Virus record (IMG/VR): IMGVR_UViG_3300026292_000003 | Span: 124,001 to 188,000 of that record | DNA length: 64,000 nucleotides | From: a virus | Strand: one strand, 5' to 3' | Shown here: one piece after another, positions 26,227 to 63,003 of the stretch | Layout of the letters: each line of letters starts with the position of its first letter | How positions within the stretch are numbered: position 1 is the first letter of the stretch | The notes under the pieces: generated by a model | Told to the model about the DNA's origin: nothing | Seen by the model: only the letters and a program-made list of their open reading frames with translations | The model's database searches: none | Position numbers and translations under genes: made by a program

Positions 26227-26814
26227 ATGCTTATACCAACAGTAATAGAAACAACGGGTCGCGGTGAACGTGCATACGACATTTACAGTCGTTTGCTTAA
26301 AGACCGAATTGTAATGCTTAATGGCGAAGTTAACGACCATTCAGCTCAATTAATAGTAGCACAGATGCTATTTTGTGAGTCACAGAATAATGCAGAAGAT
26401 ATAAATTTTTATATCAATAGCCCAGGCGGTGCAGTAACCGCAGGTCTTGCAATTTACGATACAATGCAGTTTATTAAATCTCCAGTAAGCACAATCGTAT
26501 TAGGTCAGGCTTGTAGTATGGGTAGTTTTCTTGCAATGGCAGGAGAACCAGGTAAACGTAATATATTACCTAATGCTAGAACTATGATTCACCAACCAAG
26601 TGGCGGTGCAGGTGGACAAGCTACAGATATGGAAATACAAGTAAAAGAGATTATTAAAATAAAAGAGAAATTAACAAAAATTTATGAAAAGCATAACACC
26701 GCTAATAAGTCATATGATGAGTTAAGCCAAGCTATGGAGAGAGACAATTATCTAAGTGCAGACGAAGCAGTAGCCTTCGGTTTAGCTGATAAAGTAGTTT
26801 CTAGTAAAACATAG
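26227..26814 (+). CDS. clpP: ATP-dependent Clp protease proteolytic subunit
   Basis: At 195 residues this matches bacterial ClpP (about 195-205). Catalytic Ser is in [11 protein letters not shown] (about 98), His in [11 protein letters not shown] (about 123), and Asp in [12 protein letters not shown] (about 172). INSPGG (about 65-70) is the oxyanion region. It forms the tetradecameric chamber fed by ClpX or ClpA, both encoded in this window. AGGAG precedes the start. A full active protease appears to be encoded, not a scaffold-cleaving derivative. Confidence 0.95.
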
Positions 26815-29024: not shown

Positions 29025-29473
29025 AATTAGATAATAGTTCTTATACGGTTACTCCTCCAGATCTAATGTTAACAGAACACGGTGTAAGTATTCTAGTTTC
29101 TAGTACCGACGAAAAGTTAATAAAAAAAGTAAAAGATATATTTGAAAAATATATCGCAACAAGCATTGTATTCTATATACAACAAAAACCAACAAACTCA
29201 AATACCCTACCATGGCTATGGAATGTATCAAAAACTTGTGAATTTATGATCATTGATCTTGATACCTGTGCAGAACCAGATATAATTGCAGGATTAATGA
29301 AATCAAGAGACGGTGAGAATACTGTACTATTTTACAGTGATAAGTACACTAGAAGAGATACAATAAAACTAATAAACGCAACAGGCGAAAATTTAGTAGT
29401 CACTAGGATGGAAGATATACATAACTATATAAGGTTACAAATGAACCCAGAGTATTTTGATGAGACCAAATGA
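29021..29473 (+). CDS. Conserved phage-type protein of unknown function
   Basis: A 150-residue alpha/beta protein with receiver-like alternation (GVSILVSSTDEKLIKKVKDIF, CEFMIIDLDTCAEPDIIAGLM, NTVLFYSDKY). An IIDLD segment sits where a response regulator holds its phosphorylated Asp, but the Lys of that family is not evident. It overlaps clpX by 14 bp and the membrane-protein gene by 4 bp, linking it to both. Confidence 0.5.
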   Translation: MKLDNSSYTVTPPDLMLTEHGVSILVSSTDEKLIKKVKDIFEKYIATSIVFYIQQKPTNSNTLPWLWNVSKTCEFMIIDLDTCAEPDIIAGLMKSRDGENTVLFYSDKYTRRDTIKLINATGENLVVTRMEDIHNYIRLQMNPEYFDETK

Positions 29474-30671
29474 TATAATCTGCAATTTTTGCGGAAAAAG
29501 TAGAACCCAAGTAAAAAAATTATTAGCAGGTGAGAATTCTAATCACATCTGTTCAGATTGCGTTGAGCTATGTTATGGTATTCTACAAAACAATGAAGTT
29601 AAAATAGAAAACACAATTCAAAAGAAATTTGTTCTTCCTACACCTAGAGAAATACACAAACATTTAGATGATTATGTTATAAGTCAAGATAAAGCAAAAA
29701 AGACTTTAAGTGTAGCAGTATATAATCATTATAAGAGAATAACATCAAATACAAAAACAAAATTACAAAAAGGCAACGTGTTTATGGCAGGTCCTACAGG
29801 AACTGGTAAAACACTAATGGCACAAACACTAGCCAATCATTTAGATGTACCATTTGTAGTTACTGATGCTACAGTTATTACAGAAAGTGGATACGCAGGT
29901 GAAGATGCAGAAGTGTTAATACACAAATTGTTTCAAGCGGCAGATTATGATATAGAAAGAGCAGAACGTGGAATAATATATATTGACGAAATAGATAAAA
30001 AAGCAAAACGTAATGATTTTGTTAGTTTAAGCAGAGATGTAAGTGGAGAAGGAGTTCAACAAAGTTTATTAAAACTAATAGAAGGTTCTAAAGTAACAGT
30101 ACCTAACAAGCCTCAAAGTAACCCAGAAAAAGTAGTTGTTGATACAACAAATATATTGTTTATTGTTGGTGGTGCATTTGTTGGGTTAGATGAAGTAGTT
30201 GCTAATAGACTTGGTAAATCAAAAATTGGTTTTAATGGCGAAGAAGGACATAAGATAGAAAATTGGACAGATTACTTACAAACTAAAGACTTGGTAAAGT
30301 ATGGATTAATACCAGAGTTTATTGGTAGATTTGCAAGTACTAACGTGTTAAGTAATTTAACCAAGGAAGACCTGGTAAAGATATTAATAGAACCAAAAGA
30401 TGCTATAGTAGAGCAGATCAAAGAGTTATTTTTACTTGACAAAATACAAATAGAGTTTAAAATGGAAGCATTGGAAGAGGTAGCAGATATAGCAATAAAA
30501 GAAGAAATTGGAGCCAGAGGGTTACGTAAGATACTCGATGGTGCATTACTTGAATTGCAATATAGATTACCAGAATTATTTAACGAAGGTATAAGAAAAA
30601 TTATTATTACAAAGAATGTTATTTCTAAAAACGAAGAACCACACTATATCAAAGGCAAAAATGCAACATAA
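29460..30671 (+). CDS. clpX: ATP-dependent Clp protease ATP-binding subunit ClpX
   Basis: The 403-residue protein (ATG 29460; TTG 29457 just upstream) is full-length ClpX. Cys residues 8, 11, 31 and 34 form the N-terminal zinc finger; Walker A GPTGTGKT (110-117), Walker B IIYIDEIDK (about 170-178), sensor 2 GARGLR (about 353). The ClpP-docking IGF loop is present (SKIGFNGEEG, about 257). It unfolds tagged proteins and feeds ClpP; ssrA-tagged products are classic clients. It overlaps the infC start by 11 bp, linking proteolysis and translation genes in one operon. Confidence 0.96.
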   Translation: MRPNDIICNFCGKSRTQVKKLLAGENSNHICSDCVELCYGILQNNEVKIENTIQKKFVLPTPREIHKHLDDYVISQDKAKKTLSVAVYNHYKRITSNTKTKLQKGNVFMAGPTGTGKTLMAQTLANHLDVPFVVTDATVITESGYAGEDAEVLIHKLFQAADYDIERAERGIIYIDEIDKKAKRNDFVSLSRDVSGEGVQQSLLKLIEGSKVTVPNKPQSNPEKVVVDTTNILFIVGGAFVGLDEVVANRLGKSKIGFNGEEGHKIENWTDYLQTKDLVKYGLIPEFIGRFASTNVLSNLTKEDLVKILIEPKDAIVEQIKELFLLDKIQIEFKMEALEEVADIAIKEEIGARGLRKILDGALLELQYRLPELFNEGIRKIIITKNVISKNEEPHYIKGKNAT

Positions 30672-31182
30672 ACGTTTTAAGAGAAAAGATCTGAAGCCTT
30701 TATATACTGCTAACGAAAGAATTAGATTTCCAGAAATTAGAGTTTCCTTACCAGATGGCGATAGTCAGGTCATGTCTACAAAGGAAGCCTTAGCAAAAGC
30801 AAAAGAAATGCAGTTAGACTTAATACTAATAGCTGAAAAAGCACAGCCACCAGTATGTAGAATAGTCTCACTCAATAAACATTTGTATGAGCTAAAGCAA
30901 AAAGAAAAACTGGCTAAAAAGAAACAACGCGAAAGCATTGTAGAAGTCAAAGAAATACGTATGGGTGTTAATATTGATACTCATGATTTGGAAACAAAAG
31001 CTAATATGGCTCGTAAGTTCTTAGACAAAAATAATAAACTAACAGTTATAGTGACAATGAAAGGCAGAGAACGTAGTAGGCCGGAGTCTGCTAAAGAAGT
31101 ACTAAATACATTTGCTGATAAACTTGGAATTAAATACGAGCAAGTCAGTATTCAGAGTCACAGAATAACTGGAAAAACATAG
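30661..31182 (+). CDS. infC: Translation initiation factor IF-3
   Basis: At 173 residues this is full-length IF-3 (typical 170-180). The N-domain has NERIRFPEIRV and the C-cap PPVCRIV; the linker is Lys-rich (KKKQRE), and the C-domain has VKEIRMGVNIDTHDLETKANMA and KGRERSRPE. IF-3 binds the 30S subunit, prevents subunit joining and proofreads start codons. ATG 30661 (AAAGG upstream) is within clpX. Placed directly before rpsU, it would let the phage bias initiation toward its own mRNAs, many of which use GTG or TTG starts. Confidence 0.95.
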   Translation: MQHKRFKRKDLKPLYTANERIRFPEIRVSLPDGDSQVMSTKEALAKAKEMQLDLILIAEKAQPPVCRIVSLNKHLYELKQKEKLAKKKQRESIVEVKEIRMGVNIDTHDLETKANMARKFLDKNNKLTVIVTMKGRERSRPESAKEVLNTFADKLGIKYEQVSIQSHRITGKT

Positions 31183-31493: not shown

Positions 31494-31501
31494 TATAAAT
31501 A
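31494..31501 (+). promoter_or_regulatory. T4-type late promoter (TATAAATA, perfect consensus)
   Basis: TATAAATA in the 47-bp gap between rpsU and clpS, 22 bp before the start of clpS, with AGGAGG at 31511. A perfect match to the T4 late promoter. Confidence 0.7.
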
Positions 31502-31523: not shown

Positions 31524-31826
31524 ATGACAAGAACTCAAGAGACGGGTGTTGCAGAGATTACCAAGTTAAAATCTCCACCTAAGTATTGTGTAATATTACT
31601 CAATGACGATTCTACTCCTATGGAGTTTGTTATTAATATATGTCAAACTATATTCAACAAGACTAAAGCAAAAGCAGAAGCTATTACATTAGAAGTACAT
31701 AAAAAAGGTAAAGGCGTAGCAGGAGTTTATAGTTACGAAGTAGCAGAACAGAAATGTGTAGAAACTGTAACCGAAGCAAGAAGAAACGGCTTTCCTTTAG
31801 ATGTTACATTAGAAAAAACAGAGTAA
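31524..31826 (+). CDS. clpS: ATP-dependent Clp protease adaptor ClpS
   Basis: The 100-residue adaptor shows all hallmarks: PPKYCVILLNDDSTPMEFV (about 18-36, with the two Asp that bind the N-degron amine), the helix QTIFNKTKAKAEAITLEVHKKGKGVAGVYSYE (His about 60), and the tail ARRNGFPLDVTLE. ClpS delivers N-degron proteins to ClpA and blocks ssrA-tag degradation by ClpAP. ClpA is encoded at 54107. Strong ribosome site (AGGAGG). Confidence 0.95.
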   Translation: MTRTQETGVAEITKLKSPPKYCVILLNDDSTPMEFVINICQTIFNKTKAKAEAITLEVHKKGKGVAGVYSYEVAEQKCVETVTEARRNGFPLDVTLEKTE

Positions 31827-32695: not shown

Positions 32696-33124
32696 ATGAA
32701 AATAGGATTTACTTGTTCAACATTTGATTTACTACACGCCGGGCATATTGCTATGTTGCGAGAAGCTAAAGCACAATGTGATTATTTAATAATAGGATTG
32801 CAAACAGATCCTACAATAAGCAGACCAACAAAGAATTCACCTATACAAACAGTTGTAGAAAGATATACACAATTAAAAGCAGTAGGGTATGTAGATGAAA
32901 TAATTCCATATACTACTGAACAAGATTTAGAAGATATACTTTCTATGTATAATATTGATGTAAGGGTATTAGGAGAAGAATATAGAGAAAAAGATTTTAC
33001 AGGAAAAGATATCTGTAAGCAGAGAGATATTGCTCTATACTTTAATAAGCGAGATCACAGGTTCAGTTCAACAGAATTGAGGCAACGTGTTAACACAAAG
33101 GAAATGAAAAATGAGAGTGCGTGA
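32696..33124 (+). CDS. Cytidylyltransferase-like nucleotidyltransferase (TagD type)
   Basis: The 142-residue protein starts with GFTCSTFDLLHAGHIAML (about 3-20), containing the nucleotide-binding H-x-G-H, has an RYTQLKAVGYVDEII segment (about 61-75) and ends with RFSSTELRQRV, the ISSTxxR-type phosphate-binding motif. The family transfers CMP to glycerol-3-phosphate or related phosphates. It may build a modified nucleotide or surface precursor. AAGGA precedes ATG 32696; its end overlaps guaC by 14 bp. Confidence 0.85.
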   Translation: MKIGFTCSTFDLLHAGHIAMLREAKAQCDYLIIGLQTDPTISRPTKNSPIQTVVERYTQLKAVGYVDEIIPYTTEQDLEDILSMYNIDVRVLGEEYREKDFTGKDICKQRDIALYFNKRDHRFSSTELRQRVNTKEMKNESA

Positions 33125-34232
33125 AGAAGTTAAACTAAATTTTGAAGATGTATTAATGGAACCAAAACGTTCTACATTAGGTAGTAGACGTGACGTACAA
33201 ATGACTAGAAAGTTTACATTTAGAAACTCTGGTAAAGTGATTGACTTCTGTCCTATATTTGCTAGTAATATGGATGGTGTAGGTACATTTGAAGTAGCTA
33301 AAGTATTACAAGAACATAAAATGATGACTGTAATTACAAAAAGTACACCACTAGAAGAATGGAAAGCGGCCGCTGGTACAGGTTTAAGAATGCAAAGTAT
33401 AAGTGTATGTACAGGTACAAATAAAATGTGGGACCCAGATGCACCAGACTATGCTAATATGAAAGCAGTACTAGAAGCATTTCCTGATGTAAAAATGATT
33501 ACTGTAGATGTTGCTAATGCTTATCACGAGAATTTTGTAGACTTTATTAAGATGATTAGAGATGAATATCCTGATAAAGTTATTGTAGCAGGTAACGTAG
33601 TTACACCAGAGATGGTAGAAGAATTAATTATAAACGGTGCTGACGTAGTTAAAATTGGTATTGGACCAGGCTCAGTATGTACAACAAGAACAATGACAGG
33701 TATTGGAGTACCACAGTTTTCAGCTATATTAGAATGTGCAGATGCGGCAAATGGCGTTGATGGACATATTATGGCAGATGGTGGTTGTGTACACCCAGGA
33801 GATATTGCAAAAGCACTTGGTGGTGGAGCTCATATGGTTATGATAGGTGGTATGTTAGCAGGACACAAAGAAGGTGGTGGTAAACTTATCACTAAACATA
33901 CAGCCACAGGTGGTGCGTATAAAACACCTGAGGGAACATATGTTCCTTATTATGAAGAACAACAGTTTGTTGAGTTCTACGGAATGAGTTCAGATCGTGC
34001 TAGAGAGAAGCATGGCAAACGAAAAGATGGATATAGAGGTAACGAAGGTAGACATATTGTTATGCCTTACAGAGGACCTATTAATGACACAGTTGAGAAT
34101 ATACTAGGTGGTGTTAGATCAGCGGCCACTTATATTGGAGCAAGACGTTTAAAGGATATGCCAAAGTGTGCAACATTCGTAAGAACAAATAATGTTATCA
34201 ATAGAACTTACGAGCAATTCACAGTAAAATAA
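33111..34232 (+). CDS. guaC: GMP reductase
   Basis: The 373-residue protein is a TIM-barrel IMPDH/GMPR family member; the catalytic loop KIGIGPGSVCTTRTMTGIGVPQ (about 182-203, Cys about 191) and YGMSSDRAREKHG (about 288-300) match GuaC rather than IMPDH, and no CBS domains are present. It reduces GMP to IMP and ammonia using NADPH, allowing guanine salvage into adenine nucleotides. About 25 residues longer than E. coli GuaC, with an insertion around ITKHTATGGAYKTPEG. Fits the phage's AT-rich genome. Confidence 0.9.
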   Translation: MRVREEVKLNFEDVLMEPKRSTLGSRRDVQMTRKFTFRNSGKVIDFCPIFASNMDGVGTFEVAKVLQEHKMMTVITKSTPLEEWKAAAGTGLRMQSISVCTGTNKMWDPDAPDYANMKAVLEAFPDVKMITVDVANAYHENFVDFIKMIRDEYPDKVIVAGNVVTPEMVEELIINGADVVKIGIGPGSVCTTRTMTGIGVPQFSAILECADAANGVDGHIMADGGCVHPGDIAKALGGGAHMVMIGGMLAGHKEGGGKLITKHTATGGAYKTPEGTYVPYYEEQQFVEFYGMSSDRAREKHGKRKDGYRGNEGRHIVMPYRGPINDTVENILGGVRSAATYIGARRLKDMPKCATFVRTNNVINRTYEQFTVK

Positions 34233-38259: not shown

Positions 38260-38279
38260 AAAATTAATCCACAATTCGG

Positions 38280-38307
38280 TTGACAATTAAACTTTTACGT
38301 GTATAAA
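38280..38307 (+). promoter_or_regulatory. Sigma70-type promoter of the tmRNA, overlapped by a late-like octamer
   Basis: TTGACA (38280-38285), 16-bp spacer and TATAAA (38302-38307). TATAAATA (38302-38309) also matches the late promoter, so the RNA could be made both early and late. Confidence 0.75.
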
Positions 38308-38313
38308 TATACA

Positions 38314-38604
38314 AGTAAGCGATGAAGCGACTTAACGGTAGACTGGACCTCGGGGCAGTACCGAGCAGGTCCACCATAAACACTTTGTAGTTACCAGAAC
38401 TAGATGGTACCCTAAAGTAAGGACAGACGCAGAGTGTTTATGATGGGCCTGAATTAGGATCGACAGATATTATAGGGAAGTGGAGTTTACCGGGTGATTG
38501 CGTAATTGATCAAATTTTATAAACGCAGAAGATAATTTTGCAATAGCGGCCTAATTTAGGCACGTAGGGGTGGGAACTACCTGGCAACAGAAGTGCCACT
38601 GTAT
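38314..38604 (+). ncRNA. ssrA: Circularly permuted two-piece tmRNA (10Sa RNA)
   Basis: The gene encodes the 3' acceptor piece first (about 38314-38376, ending CAGGTCC-ACCA) and the coding piece second (38445 to about 38604, starting GGGCCTGAATTAGGATCGACAG). The ends pair: GGGCCTG (38445-38451) with CAGGTCC (38366-38372), one G-U. A 9-bp helix 2 joins CGGTAGACT (38336-38344) to AGTTTACCG (38484-38492). The intervening segment carries TAAACACT (38377-38384) against AGTGTTTA (38433-38440), a processing stem. The tag frame starts at GCA 38525: A-E-D-N-F-A-I-A-A-stop (38525-38554). Downstream GGCAC/GTGCC (38559-38597) gives a pseudoknot-like hairpin. Such permutation is typical of Alphaproteobacteria. 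Confidence 0.93.
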
Positions 38605-39259: not shown

Positions 39260-39269
39260 TTAATTAGGT

Positions 39270-39299
39270 TGCGGGTTACCCTTTACACAAAAACCCGCA
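39270..39299 (+). terminator. Possible terminator hairpin
   Basis: TGCGGGTT/AACCCGCA, an 8-bp GC-rich stem with a 14-nt loop, followed by only TTTCC. It lies between the barrel gene and the next late promoter. Confidence 0.5.
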
Positions 39300-39304
39300 T
39301 TTCC

Positions 39305-39312
39305 GATAAATA
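39305..39312 (+). promoter_or_regulatory. T4-type late promoter (GATAAATA)
   Basis: GATAAATATTATAGAC, 28 bp before ATG 39341. Confidence 0.65.
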
Positions 39313-39340
39313 TTATAGACAGGCAAGAGGAGATTTTATC

Positions 39341-40420
39341 ATGCCGCCTAGAAATCATAAAAATTGGTTAGCAAAACCAAACGTAGAATATGTAAGTAGT
39401 GAAATATATTCAGATCAAAAAATTTTCGAAGAAGAAATAAAACATATCTTTAGTAAGGTATGGGTACCAGTATGCCATACAAGTGAAATGAATATGACTG
39501 GTTGTTTTAGAACAACACAAATTGCATTTCAAAATATAATTGTTATTAAATTTAGTAGTGGAATTGTTAGAGCATTTCATAATAAAGATGTAACAAAAGT
39601 ATCAGGTATGGATATGTCGCTTTGTTATCATGCATTAAGTTGGAAAGAATTGCCGTGCGAAATAAAGCATGGTGGAATGGTATGGGTAACTTTAGATACA
39701 GAAACAACACAGAGTGTAGATCAATGGACGGCTGGTGCATTTGATTGTATTAGTGATGCAATTGATGCAGAAGACTTAGAAGTATTTCATTACCATAAAG
39801 CAATTATACCAACAAACTATAAACTATGGCATGATACAAATAGTGAATTTTATCATGACTTTATGCATTATTTTAATAGAGTAACTGGTTTTAATGATGA
39901 ATATTTTGCTAGAAAAAATATTCCATTTGATAACGGTCACGTAAATGTAAGTAGCTTTACAGTTAATTATACAGAATTTAATAAAGATGGTGACCGAGGA
40001 GAATTAAGTTTTCCTAACTTACCACCAAACCAATGGTATATGGTAGACTTGTTTCCAGGGTTTAATTTTAATTTGCGTGGTAGTGCGTATCGTAGTGATA
40101 GTGTTACTCCACTAGGGCCTAATAGCACACTTATAGAGTTTAGGGGCTATGGGCTAGAAAAAGATACTAAAGAAGAACGTGAAACTCGTATCAAACATCA
40201 CAATACTATATGGGGACCTTTTGGACGTAATTTGCACGAAGACTTAATTGGAGTTACAGGGCAAGGAGTATCAATGGCAGAAGGCACAGAAAAAAGAAAC
40301 ATTTTACATGGTAGGCACGAAAATGGAACTATACATGATGAGGTTGGTATGAGGCATTATTACGCAGAGTGGGGAAAACACGTAAACTTAGATCCTTCTA
40401 ATCCTATTATTAGTACTTGA
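39341..40420 (+). CDS. Rieske non-heme iron oxygenase-like protein with incomplete cluster motif
   Basis: The 359-residue protein follows ring-hydroxylating oxygenase alpha-subunit order: VSSEIYSDQKIFEEEIKHIFSKVWVPVCH (about 19-46), ITTQIAFQNIIVIK and AFHNKD, LCYHALSWKE where the C-P-Y-H-G-W Rieske block would be (about 94-103), and a catalytic segment LWHDTNSEFYHDFMHYFNR (about 164-182) with facial His/Asp candidates. The first Rieske C-x-H pair is missing (HNKD instead of CxHRG), so the 2Fe-2S site is probably altered or lost. ATG 39341 with AAGAGGAG is preferred over an upstream ATG at 39269. It could receive electrons from the Fpr at 17684. Confidence 0.6.
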   Translation: MPPRNHKNWLAKPNVEYVSSEIYSDQKIFEEEIKHIFSKVWVPVCHTSEMNMTGCFRTTQIAFQNIIVIKFSSGIVRAFHNKDVTKVSGMDMSLCYHALSWKELPCEIKHGGMVWVTLDTETTQSVDQWTAGAFDCISDAIDAEDLEVFHYHKAIIPTNYKLWHDTNSEFYHDFMHYFNRVTGFNDEYFARKNIPFDNGHVNVSSFTVNYTEFNKDGDRGELSFPNLPPNQWYMVDLFPGFNFNLRGSAYRSDSVTPLGPNSTLIEFRGYGLEKDTKEERETRIKHHNTIWGPFGRNLHEDLIGVTGQGVSMAEGTEKRNILHGRHENGTIHDEVGMRHYYAEWGKHVNLDPSNPIIST

Positions 40421-40450: not shown

Positions 40451-40527
40451 GGACCATTAGCTCAGCTGGATAGAGCGCCTGTCTACGGAACAGGAGGCCA
40501 GGAGTTCGAATCTCTTATGGTCCGCCA
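40451..40527 (+). tRNA. tRNA-Arg (ACG)
   Basis: Acceptor GGACCAT/ATGGTCC, anticodon stem CCTGT/ACAGG with loop CTACGGA giving ACG (read as ICG after TadA editing, decoding CGU/CGC/CGA), T arm AGTTCGAATCT, encoded CCA. Confidence 0.96.
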
Positions 40528-40530
40528 AAA

Positions 40531-40538
40531 GATAAATA
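40531..40538 (+). promoter_or_regulatory. T4-type late promoter (GATAAATA)
   Basis: GATAAATAGACGAGTG, 5 bp before the GTG start of speD and 3 bp after tRNA-Arg. Confidence 0.5.
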
Positions 40539-40543
40539 GACGA

Positions 40544-40945
40544 GTGAAACTGCTAGAGCATAAGCATATTATAATAAGAGCGGAAGTACTTGATCCGCCA
40601 CGTGCAGAAAACCCTACAAGTGAACAAGTAAAAACTCTGATCAATGATATTGGAATGAAAATTATGATGGGTCCTTTTGCCCAAAGATCAGAAATGGTAG
40701 GTAATGCAGGACTTACAGTAGCAACAATTATAGAAACATCACACGTAATACTACATACCTGGGATGAAGTGCATCCAGCATTAATGCAATTAGATGTTTA
40801 TACTTGCAGTCATTTAGATCCTAAAATAGTTTTTAAATGGCTAGAACAATTCAAGCCAACCAAAATAGATTACAAATATATTGATAGGGAATTTAAGTTA
40901 GATCTTAAACGGAAAAAGATACCTTTCCATATTGAACAGGATTAG
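40544..40945 (+). CDS. speD: S-adenosylmethionine decarboxylase (SpeD)
   Basis: The 133-residue protein has the bacterial SpeD core: ETSHVILHTWDEVHPALMQLDVYTCS (about 64-89). Ser in T-S-H is the site of self-cleavage that creates the pyruvoyl group; His in LHTW and Cys in YTCS are the conserved catalytic partners. It makes decarboxylated SAM for spermidine synthesis, which can neutralise packaged DNA. GTG 40544 is chosen; an in-frame upstream start would fall inside tRNA-Arg. The 3' end overlaps the minus-strand gene at 40905 by 41 bp. Confidence 0.88.
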   Translation: MKLLEHKHIIIRAEVLDPPRAENPTSEQVKTLINDIGMKIMMGPFAQRSEMVGNAGLTVATIIETSHVILHTWDEVHPALMQLDVYTCSHLDPKIVFKWLEQFKPTKIDYKYIDREFKLDLKRKKIPFHIEQD

Positions 40946-53149: not shown

Positions 53150-53453
53150 TCTAAAAGTACCACAAATACTAAAAGTTAACACAGCACCTATAGAGAAACA
53201 TTCTTTAAAACTCCCTAAGGTTGATCAATATGATGCAAGATCATTGGAGTGGATAGTTCTTACTCCTGACAATGTAGACGAAGTGTTTGCAAAACTAAAA
53301 GCTAATAACATAGACCTCGTACTTTTTGCTGTAACTGATGATGGATACCAAAACTTATCGCTTAATATGGCTGATATAATTAAATTGGTAAAACAACAAA
53401 AATCCATTATAGCGGCTTACGAAAAGTACTTGGACAATGAAGAAGCTCAATAA
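53091..53453 (+). CDS. o-spanin-like lipoprotein (Rz1-type)
   Basis: ATG 53091 (GGTGAT upstream) encodes 120 residues with a lipoprotein signal [18 protein letters not shown] and lipobox L-T-G-C, then [10 protein letters not shown] and a helical C-terminus. It overlaps the i-spanin gene by 59 bp in another frame. It is longer than typical Rz1 and less Pro-rich, so a different lipoprotein cannot be excluded, but topology and position fit. Confidence 0.7.
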
Positions 53454-54114
53454 TCCTTGGTATATTCTTGGCGTTGAACCTAACGCATCGCTTACCGCGA
53501 TAAAAAAAGCATATAAAAGATTAGCAATTAGAATGCACCCAGACAAAGGTGGCTCTGTAGCTGATTGGTTAAATGTAAGTCAAGCATATGAAAAGATTTT
53601 AAAGAAAGAACACGTACCTGTAAAGAAAGGTAAAGATGTTAAATATGTTGATATATACTTAACTATACAACAACAAATAAATGGTTTTGAAGGCTTTGTA
53701 GTAATAGATGAAGAAAAAGAATTATATTTAAAAGTAAAAATACCAGCAGGTGCATTAAGAAATGATAAGTTTAGAGTAATACACAATGCTAAAAAGTACA
53801 TTATAAATATTAAAGAAAAAGCAGATAAAGTCTTTACAAGACAAGGAAATAATGTTATAGTATATAAAAAGTTAGATATAATAGACATAATGAAACAAAA
53901 ACCGTTTGTTGTTATATCTCCTTTAGGTGAATATCTCGAAGTACAAATTCCACCAAATACAGATTCTGGAAGTATAATTGTCGTAAAAGGACAAGGCTTA
54001 TACAACAGAAGAACAAAGAAAAGAGGAAACTTAAGAATTAACGTGAAAGTAAATATACCCACAGTGAACAAAGATAATGTTCAACAAATTATAAAAAGAT
54101 TAAAAGATGACTGA
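53437..54114 (+). CDS. DnaJ-like co-chaperone (J domain plus client-binding C-domain)
   Basis: The 225-residue protein has an N-terminal J domain ([34 protein letters not shown], about 5-40) with the essential H-P-D, and a C-terminal beta domain of DnaJ type (about 75-220: [44 protein letters not shown]). No zinc domain, so class B. It would stimulate host DnaK, perhaps for phage protein folding or replication. It overlaps the lipoprotein by 17 bp and clpA by 8 bp. Confidence 0.88.
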
Positions 54115-56368
54115 TATAGAAAAAATTGTTATAACTGCTATTAACCTAGCAAAGAAATTTAGACACGAGTATGTTACTATTGAACATTTGTCGGCTGTTA
54201 TATTAGATGACCCAGAAGTTCAAGCAATGTGTTATGAAGTACAAGCAGATCATGAACAGTTACAAATTTCATTAGTAAATTATTTAGAGCATGATTGTAA
54301 AGAATTAATAAAAAGTAAAAAAGAAGAACCTAATCCATTTAAGACTCAAATGTTAGAAAGGGTTTTTAACAGAGCATTAACTCAAGCATTGTTTCAAGGT
54401 AAGAAAGCAATTAATCAGTTAGATTTAGTATTAAGTATATTAGGTGAAGAACATAGTGTTGCGGCAACATATGCAGATCAATGTGGACTTAATAAAAATA
54501 AAGTTATGGCTTGGATGCAAGATACAGCTCAAGCACAAATTGATACAATATTTACAGCCATGCCACCAGGTATGGATCCTTATGGACACAATGGTCCACA
54601 AACTCCACTTGCAGTATTAAATCAATATTGTAATAATCTAAATGAAGCAAGTCAAGACTTTGATGATGTAGTAGGGCGTAGAGATGTGTTAAGAGATTTA
54701 GTTCAAACTGTAGCACGTAAGAAAAAATCAAATGCAGTATTAACAGGAGGCAGTGGTGTAGGTAAAACAGCCATTGTACAAGGATTAGCAAAATTAATTG
54801 TAGAAGGTAAAGTTCCTGAAGTTATAAAAAGTAAAACTGTATGGGAACTTGATATGACAAAACTAGTAGCTGGTACAAAATACAGAGGTGACTTTGAAGA
54901 ACGTATGAAGCAATTAGGAGAAGCATTACGAAAACAACCAGACATTATTTTATTCATAGATGAGATACATCAAATAATTGGTGCAGGTAGTACAAATCAA
55001 TCAATGGACGCAGGTAATATGTTAAAGCCTGCATTAGCAAGTGGAACATTAAAAGTTATTGGTGCTACAACAGATGAAGAATATAGAAGAGTATTTGAGA
55101 AAGAAACTGCATTAGCACGTAGGTTTACAAAAGTATCAGTAGATGAACCTAGTGTAAAAGATGCTAAAGAAGTATTAAAACATACTATAGTTTCTTATGA
55201 AGGATATCATGATGTAGAAATTACAGATGAGGCTTGTGAACTAGCAGTTGATTTAAGTCATCAATATATGTTTAATAAAAAGTTACCAGATAAAGCATTT
55301 GACATAGTTGATAGAGCCTGTGCATATAATACAATATTACCAGTAAAAGATAGATTAAAGGTTATTGGTGTAGATGAAATTAGAGCAGAAGTATCTAAAC
55401 TTACTACAATACCTGAAGAACATTTAGGACTTTCAAAAGATAAAGAAACTGCTACTAAACATAGCGAAGTAAGATCATTCTTAGAAAAAACTGTATTTGG
55501 ACAACAAGGTGCTATTAATCGTGTAGTTGATAGTATTACAGTTAGTATGGCAGGATTAAAAGATCCTGTTAAACCTATTGCAAGTTATTTGTTTACTGGT
55601 CCAACTGGTGTTGGTAAAACAGAATTAGCAAAAAGATTAGCACAAGCAATGACTATGAAACTGGTACGTTATGATATGGCAGAATATCAAGAACGTCATA
55701 CAGTATCAAAACTTATTGGATCACCTCCAGGATATGTAGGGTTTGCAGATGGAAAAGCAGGTGATGGTTTATTAATTACACAACTAGAAGATAATCCAAA
55801 TTGTGTACTATTATTAGACGAAGTAGAAAAAGCACACCCAGACTTAATGAGTGTATTATTAAGTTTATTAGACGAGGGTACAATTACAAGTAGTACTGGT
55901 AAAATAGTAAATGCAAAAAATGCAATAATTATTATGACTAGTAACTTAGGTGCCAGAGATGCGTCAATTAAAAGTATAGGTTTTAACGAAGAAACTTATA
56001 ATCACAAAGCAGTAGATGAAGCAATAAACAATTACTTCTCGCCAGAATTTCGTAATAGGCTTGATGGTATAGTAAAATTTAATTCATTATCACGTGAGAA
56101 TATGAACAGTATTGTTATTAAATTCTTAAATGAATTAGAGAGTTATGTAGCTCAAAGAAACATAGAAATTTCTTGGGGTCCTGCATTACAAACTATGCTA
56201 GAAGATAAAGGGTATGATCCTCAGATGGGAGCAAGGCCTTTAGCAAGACTAATTAACGAAAAAGTAAAACTTCCATTAGCTAAATACTTACTAGATAGAG
56301 AAGGTAAGAAAAAGCTAAACTTAACAGTTGATTGGAAGAAAGACGAGCTAGTAATTAATGGAAAATAA
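54107..56368 (+). CDS. clpA: ATP-dependent Clp protease ATP-binding subunit ClpA
   Basis: The 753-residue AAA+ unfoldase equals E. coli ClpA (758). N-domain about 1-140 with [11 protein letters not shown]; first AAA module with Walker A GGSGVGKT (about 218-225) and [15 protein letters not shown] (about 281-295); no long M-domain, excluding ClpB; second module with GPTGVGKT (about 497-504) and [13 protein letters not shown] (about 567-579). A ClpP-docking IGF loop ([11 protein letters not shown], about 622-632) is present. It works with the phage ClpP and ClpS. It follows a J-domain gene, joining chaperone and protease functions. Confidence 0.93.
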
Positions 56369-61977: not shown

Positions 61978-63003
61978 ATGACTTTAGGTAAAGTTGGTTT
62001 TGCTTGTAAGTATTTACATCACGATCAAACACAAAAGAAGAAAATCCTAGAGGAACTTCAAAGACCACTTACTGAAAAATGTACAACAGTAAGGTGGCTT
62101 AATAGTCAACATAGAGATGTAGCAGAGCAAAGGCTATGGGACATAATGGTCCATAATAGTCAAGCAGTTTACAACCTAATAGAATATGTTGGCAGTTTAC
62201 CAGAACGACAGAGAATGGTTAGGCTGGGCAGTAATCAACTGCCCGTCTATACTCAAGATGATTGGCGATATTTCTGGAAACGCACAGACGTAATTGATTA
62301 CGCAAATAAGTATTATAGTAGAGCAGGTGAACTTGCAAGGAAACTTGGTGTACGTCTTAGTATGCACCCAGGGCAATTTACAGTACTAGCAAGTGATAAT
62401 CCTGAAATTGTAGAACGTAGTATAGAGGAGTTTGAATATCATGCGAATATCATCAGGTGGATGGGCTACGGTAAGAGTTGGCAAGACTTCAAGTGTAACG
62501 TCCACATCTCAGGCAAAAAAGGTCCAGCCGGTATCAAAGCCGTCCTTCCAAGATTGTCTACAGAAGCAAGAAACTGTATTACTATTGAAAACGATGAAAA
62601 CTCGTGGGGCATCGATGCCTCGCTTGAACTTGAGAAGGAGGTAGCACTCGTTGCAGACATACACCACCACTGGGTTCATAGTGCCGGAGAGTATATACAC
62701 GTCAATGACGACAGAATTAAACGTATTATTGATTCTTGGCGTGGCGTTAGGCCTGTGTTGCATTATAGTGTTAGCCGTGAAGATTATATCAACTCGGATA
62801 ACAAAAGACATAGACCGGACTTTCAAGCCCTTATTGAGCAAGGATACAAAAAAGCCAAATTAAGAGCCCATAGCGACTATATGTGGAATACAGCCGTTAA
62901 CGAATGGGCTGGAACATTCCGTAAAGACTTTGATATCATGGTAGAAGCTAAAATGAAGAATTTAGCTAGTATCCCATTTGAGGAACAAACAGCTCTTATT
63001 TGA
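61978..63003 (+). CDS. uvsE: UV damage endonuclease (UvdE/UvsE)
   Basis: The 341-residue TIM-barrel nuclease carries the family motifs KVGFACKYLHH at the N-terminus, RLSMHPGQFTVLAS (about 123-136; metal-binding His), CNVHISGKKGPAG (about 169-181), ITIENDENSW (about 201-210; Glu ligand) and HHHWVHSAG (about 227-235). It nicks DNA 5' of UV photoproducts, suiting a phage of sunlit water. GC content is visibly higher than its neighbours, which suggests recent transfer. Confidence 0.9.
   Translation: MTLGKVGFACKYLHHDQTQKKKILEELQRPLTEKCTTVRWLNSQHRDVAEQRLWDIMVHNSQAVYNLIEYVGSLPERQRMVRLGSNQLPVYTQDDWRYFWKRTDVIDYANKYYSRAGELARKLGVRLSMHPGQFTVLASDNPEIVERSIEEFEYHANIIRWMGYGKSWQDFKCNVHISGKKGPAGIKAVLPRLSTEARNCITIENDENSWGIDASLELEKEVALVADIHHHWVHSAGEYIHVNDDRIKRIIDSWRGVRPVLHYSVSREDYINSDNKRHRPDFQALIEQGYKKAKLRAHSDYMWNTAVNEWAGTFRKDFDIMVEAKMKNLASIPFEEQTALI

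Follow-up and report, generated by a model that had tools for sequence, protein, structure and literature searches.

A permuted two-piece tmRNA gene of alphaproteobacterial type, accompanied by Clp genes, in a large T4-like marine phage

Permuted tmRNA gene and promoter

The window analysed here, 64,000 nucleotides of viral DNA (bases 124001–188000 of a 221,643-base record), contains at 38280–38602 a permuted (two-piece) tmRNA gene of the alphaproteobacterial type, belonging to a large marine T4-like phage. Judged by its sequence, the phage carries a complete and well-conserved two-piece tmRNA, which we consider likely to function in ribosome rescue, with the tagged products passing mostly to host ClpXP or to a ClpAP.

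Identification rests on two Rfam covariance models, both scoring about twice their gathering cut-offs: RF01849 gave 97.1 bits over 38260–38602 (cut-off 50, E = 3.1e-25) and RF04321 gave 98.3 bits over 38315–38554 (cut-off 47). ARAGORN likewise called a tmRNA* with the tag AEDNFAIAA. These calls confirm the original prediction, made from the letters alone, of a permuted two-piece tmRNA in a phage genome, and the proposed alphaproteobacterial layout, in which the acceptor piece precedes the coding piece (Table 1), is borne out by the sequence and the Rfam models. Within the window, RF01849 matched this gene only. The fold of the precursor RNA had a z-score of -4.46, none of 200 shuffled sequences being equally stable, and the stem described as flanking the removed segment is present, with 9 bp instead of the 8 bp claimed. 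Compared with RF01849 and RF04321, the window tmRNA has the same piece order, acceptor stem, T-loop, D-loop motif GGATCGAC and ACCTGGCAACAGAA; it differs in a shorter 3' part and in a T4-late-like TATAAATA promoter that overlaps the 5' flank included in the RF01849 model. Used as a DNA query against annotated phages, the gene returned no matches.

Table 1. Positions of the tmRNA gene parts, the promoter and the associated protein genes within the window
Feature	Position	Strand	Evidence or remark
Promoter TTGACA-N16-TATAAATA	38280..38309	+	directly upstream of tmRNA; TATAAATA at 38302-38309
Acceptor piece, tRNA-like 3' half	38315..38376	+	RF04321 start 38315; ARAGORN 3' tRNA domain end 38376
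T-arm	38349..38365	+	inside acceptor piece; T-loop GGCAGTA 38354-38360
Acceptor strand	38366..38372	+	inside acceptor piece; discriminator A and CCA 38373-38376
Removed intervening segment, 68 nt	38377..38444	+	closed by stem 38376-38384 / 38433-38441
Coding piece (mRNA-like)	38445..38602	+	opens with acceptor 5' strand GGGCCTG; approximate 3' end, from RF01849 match
Conserved ACCTGGCAACAGAA	close to coding-piece 3' end	+	
Tag frame AEDNFAIAA and TAA	38525..38554	+	GCA GAA GAT AAT TTT GCA ATA GCG GCC TAA; ARAGORN
ClpP protease	26227..26814	+	PF00574 257 bits; 56% identical to E. coli ClpP; triad Ser, His, Asp visible in alignment
ClpX unfoldase	29457..30671	+	NF003745 502.6 bits, equivalog cut-off 359; zinc domain PF06689; IGF loop
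Translation initiation factor IF-3	30616..31182	+	TIGR00168 131.8 bits, cut-off 60
ClpS adaptor	31524..31826	+	PF02617 103.7 bits; TATAAATA (31494-31501) ~22 nt before start codon
DnaJ-like co-chaperone	53437..54114	+	PF01556, PF00226 above cut-off; adjoins ClpA-like gene
ClpA-like double AAA+ unfoldase	54107..56368	+	TIGR02639 759.6 bits, under equivalog cut-off 993

The promoter pairs TTGACA, the consensus sigma-70 -35 box, with TATAAATA as the -10 element, which can also be read as the T4 late-promoter consensus. This combination occurs once in the window (0.03 expected), and its spacing places the predicted transcript start near 38315 (38314–38316), coinciding with the start of the RNA model. 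Most phage tmRNA genes of the alpha type retain TTGACA and TATAAATA, set at a near-constant distance from the acceptor piece; the genes with the tag ADENLALAA (L098, L102 and L063) have TATAAT-like boxes in place of TATAAATA. Across the phage genome TATAAATA is rarer than expected under a first-order model (13 copies in total against about 28 per strand), and copies precede TerL (one), ClpS (one) and the tmRNA, a rarity and placement to be expected of a reserved late promoter.

Conservation of helices, T-loop and tag

Helix support was evaluated in 25 distinct phage tmRNAs, alpha-type or similar, gathered from viral contigs, by comparing the percentage of paired positions with that after 5000 partner swaps, a procedure that ignores sequence relatedness. 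The 7-bp acceptor stem joining the two pieces (38445–38451 / 38366–38372), already recognized in the sequence, was paired in all 25 homologues, with compensatory changes on both strands at pairs 4–7; G3.U70, the alanine identity pair, was invariant, as were the discriminator A and CCA. Two further inter-piece helices, both short, were recovered: CAG/CTG (38464–38466 / 38343–38345, 3 bp), 95% paired, and GTAAGC/GTTTAC (38315–38320 / 38485–38490, 5–6 bp), 94% paired, with no swap among the 5000 performing as well. A 9-bp helix 2 had also been proposed. The sole 9-bp complementarity found between the pieces, CGGTAGACT (38336–38344) with AGTTTACCG (38484–38492), is presumably the one intended; it pairs at 9/9 positions in the window, but in that sequence alone, since the homologues pair at 41% against 40% after partner swaps, and it was rejected. 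Free minimum-energy co-folding of the two pieces gave inconsistent helix 2 pairings (z-scores +0.7 to -4.9), so the anchored homologue comparison was used instead.

The T-loop, initially regarded as unusual, proved normal for its type, since nearly all alpha-type phage homologues share GGC[A/G]GTA unchanged, with a T-stem that varies in a compensatory manner around it, and the loop matches the Rfam consensus. Two genes of another type, on contigs L093 and L095, have a different T-loop (TGCAATT).

The tag frame contains both the resume codon and the Ala-Ala end, and in nearly all phage homologues it is open and ends in [ILMV]AA. The A-I-A-A ending highlighted in the original prediction is indeed uncommon but not unique, AIAA or AMAA endings being present in other phages and AEDNFAIAA itself being the tag of one-piece Clostridium and Lachnospiraceae tmRNAs. 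L093 and L095 carry the identical tag on a quite different tmRNA backbone; together with the one-piece genes, this indicates that the tag arose more than once. Reference bacterial genomes yielded matches to AEDNFAIAA in Firmicutes only, and thus the tag indicates no host.

Collectively, the compensatory stem changes, open tag frames and conserved promoter across divergent phages show selection on the tmRNA. Covariation contradicts a host-derived, non-functional passenger, which we regard as highly improbable even though phages often pick up tRNA-like genes and at least 14 changes in tmRNA presence are needed on the ClpX tree.

Phage lineage, Clp genes and the ClpX association

Terminase (TerL) and capsid place this T4-like phage nearest to PA5oct, Phosso and Atu_ph07. 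Besides the genes in Table 1, the window holds host-like metabolic genes at 39269–40420, 40517–40945, 33111–34232 and 61978–63003 (Rieske-type oxygenase, SpeD-like, GMP-reductase-like and UvdE endonuclease), the SpeD-like and GMP-reductase-like assignments being made by eye only. In two further contigs of large phages, L106 (3070–3145) and L109 (1887–1961), tRNAs with a CUA anticodon (amber suppressor-like) lie near the tmRNA, which hints at stop-codon recoding in those phages. SmpB was detected in none of 51 viral records, namely that of the window phage and 50 others bearing ClpX; incompleteness of the window record could account for its absence there. Since no phage SmpB was found, SmpB of the host would be needed.

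Among viral contigs bearing ClpX, 23 of the longest 50 had a permuted tmRNA, against 6 of 42 control contigs without ClpX, taken from the PhoH/terminase set (Fisher P 0.0015). The two genes lay less than 20 kb apart in 23 of 27 records (11.8 expected), and in 10 of 13 when only records above 100 kb were counted (2.7 expected). The link is suggestive only, because the contigs are fragmentary, the sets came from different queries and kinship was not removed. The ClpX tree offers few independent events that bear on a link between RKH and tmRNA presence.

The ClpX of the window phage lacks the E. coli-type features of ssrA recognition (GYVG and RKH): its pore-1 loop reads GYAG, and NKPQSNPEK stands where RKH is found. 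The change is shared by its clade of ten sequences (support 100), in which pore-1 is GYAG or GYIG, RKH is absent throughout and Thr199 of pore-2 is replaced by Ser, while the IGF loop that docks ClpP is retained. Most other phage ClpX proteins keep GYVG and an RKH-like loop. Four clade members have an ordinary ...MALAA tag, and therefore the tag has not changed in step with ClpX. A simple rule by which AIAA tags covary with the ClpX loops was rejected, given that GYAG relatives without RKH carry ALAA tags and that L061 combines an AIAA tag with GYVG and RKH.

Relation to known phage tmRNAs

Permuted tmRNAs have been published for the OM43 phage Melnitz, Pelagibacter phage Mosig and pelagimyophages, in a study that counted 53 phage two-piece tmRNAs, proposed an early promoter for the marine-phage genes and suggested a role for them (PMC9004378). 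The window tmRNA therefore belongs to a known kind and is an addition from a different large-phage lineage. It shares with these genes the two-piece alphaproteobacterial type and the T4-like marine setting, and differs in the larger T4-like lineage of its phage, the Clp gene set and the short AEDNFAIAA tag.

Parallels in gene content are found among jumbo phages. The accessible part of PMC11242549 describes a tmRNA and a clpX adjoining IF-3 in Sinorhizobium phage AP-J-162, and proposes no link between tmRNA and protease. Sinorhizobium phage Phosso has a permuted tmRNA and a ClpX adjoining IF-3, with ClpS further along, so that the tmRNA and the ClpX–IF-3 pair are common to the window phage and both jumbo phages; in Atu_ph07, too, ClpX adjoins IF-3. 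Unlike the window ClpX, that of Phosso still has GYVG and a loop of RKN type. The distant Bacillus phage G, for which ssrA is listed (PMC4131195), also combines ssrA with a ClpX homologue. New here are the Clp/DnaJ/IF-3 gene set accompanying the tmRNA, the enrichment of tmRNAs with ClpX and the altered ClpX loops; no discussion of a tmRNA paired with a Clp set and altered ClpX loops was found in the literature searched, which lay mostly outside subscription journals.

Proposed ribosome rescue and probable fate of tagged products

In the proposed mechanism, the tmRNA would be transcribed during infection from the strong promoter directly upstream, and host tRNA-processing enzymes would cut the precursor into the acceptor and coding pieces, which the acceptor stem and the two short helices would keep joined. 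Host AlaRS would charge it with alanine through G3.U70, and host SmpB would load it on ribosomes stalled at broken mRNAs, where the tag A-AEDNFAIAA would be added. The phage would gain extra ribosome rescue during the breakdown of host transcripts, and the tagged products would go to host ClpXP or a ClpAP more probably than to the phage's own ClpXP.

The original prediction had instead suggested retagging for the phage's own ClpXP. In this alternative, a self-contained disposal route, the phage would control both tag and protease, its tmRNA tagging products that its ClpXP, or the ClpA-like protein with ClpP, destroys. ClpX, ClpP, ClpS and a ClpA-like protein are indeed encoded in one genome, the ClpP-docking loop is kept, most other phage ClpX proteins retain the tag-recognizing loops and tmRNAs are enriched with and close to ClpX; yet shared ancestry or genome size may explain that enrichment and proximity. 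The proposal is weakened further by the ClpX loops of the window clade. In the accessible part of PMC7652416, the E. coli ClpX substitutions R228A and V154F raise KM for ssrA substrates at least 50-fold and T199S about 4-fold, R228A shifts the enzyme towards an N-degron substrate, human ClpXP, with different residues at Thr199 and His230, fails to degrade ssrA substrates, and V154A is not among the mutants reported. Because the loops of the phage ClpX are changed at the E. coli ssrA-contact sites, it is expected, by analogy, to handle ssrA tags poorly. We therefore consider self-contained disposal unlikely, albeit the strongest of the alternatives.

Distinctly less probable is that the phage tmRNA competes with that of the host so as to swap the tag, a short tag that may lack SspB contacts thereby slowing or redirecting degradation. 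At nine residues the tag is shorter than the ANDNYSPEMALAA-type tags of the closest kin, SspB was found in none of 15 phage records, and tmRNA is inhibited by a molecule that consists of the tRNA-like domain only and resembles that of phage DS6A (PMC4131195). Against this, the tag still ends in Ala-Ala, the main determinant for ClpX, and the closest kin have long canonical tags.

Ribosome rescue with disposal mainly by the host thus remains the preferred reading. For the window clade, we tentatively suggest, as a possibility we hold with some doubt, that the phage tmRNA and a phage ClpXP whose substrate loops have been rebuilt represent a re-specified or divided degradation pathway, in which ClpX would have given up ssrA tags for other substrates, leaving tmRNA-tagged products to host proteases or phage ClpAP, and that tmRNA and Clp genes may form a recurrent proteostasis neighbourhood in large phages. 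Phage tmRNAs are known and their purpose is unexplained; a conserved tmRNA with its own promoter, located near phage ClpX, ClpP and ClpS and accompanied by a ClpX that has lost its tag-gripping loops, offers a clean test of whether such genes serve rescue, tagging or both.
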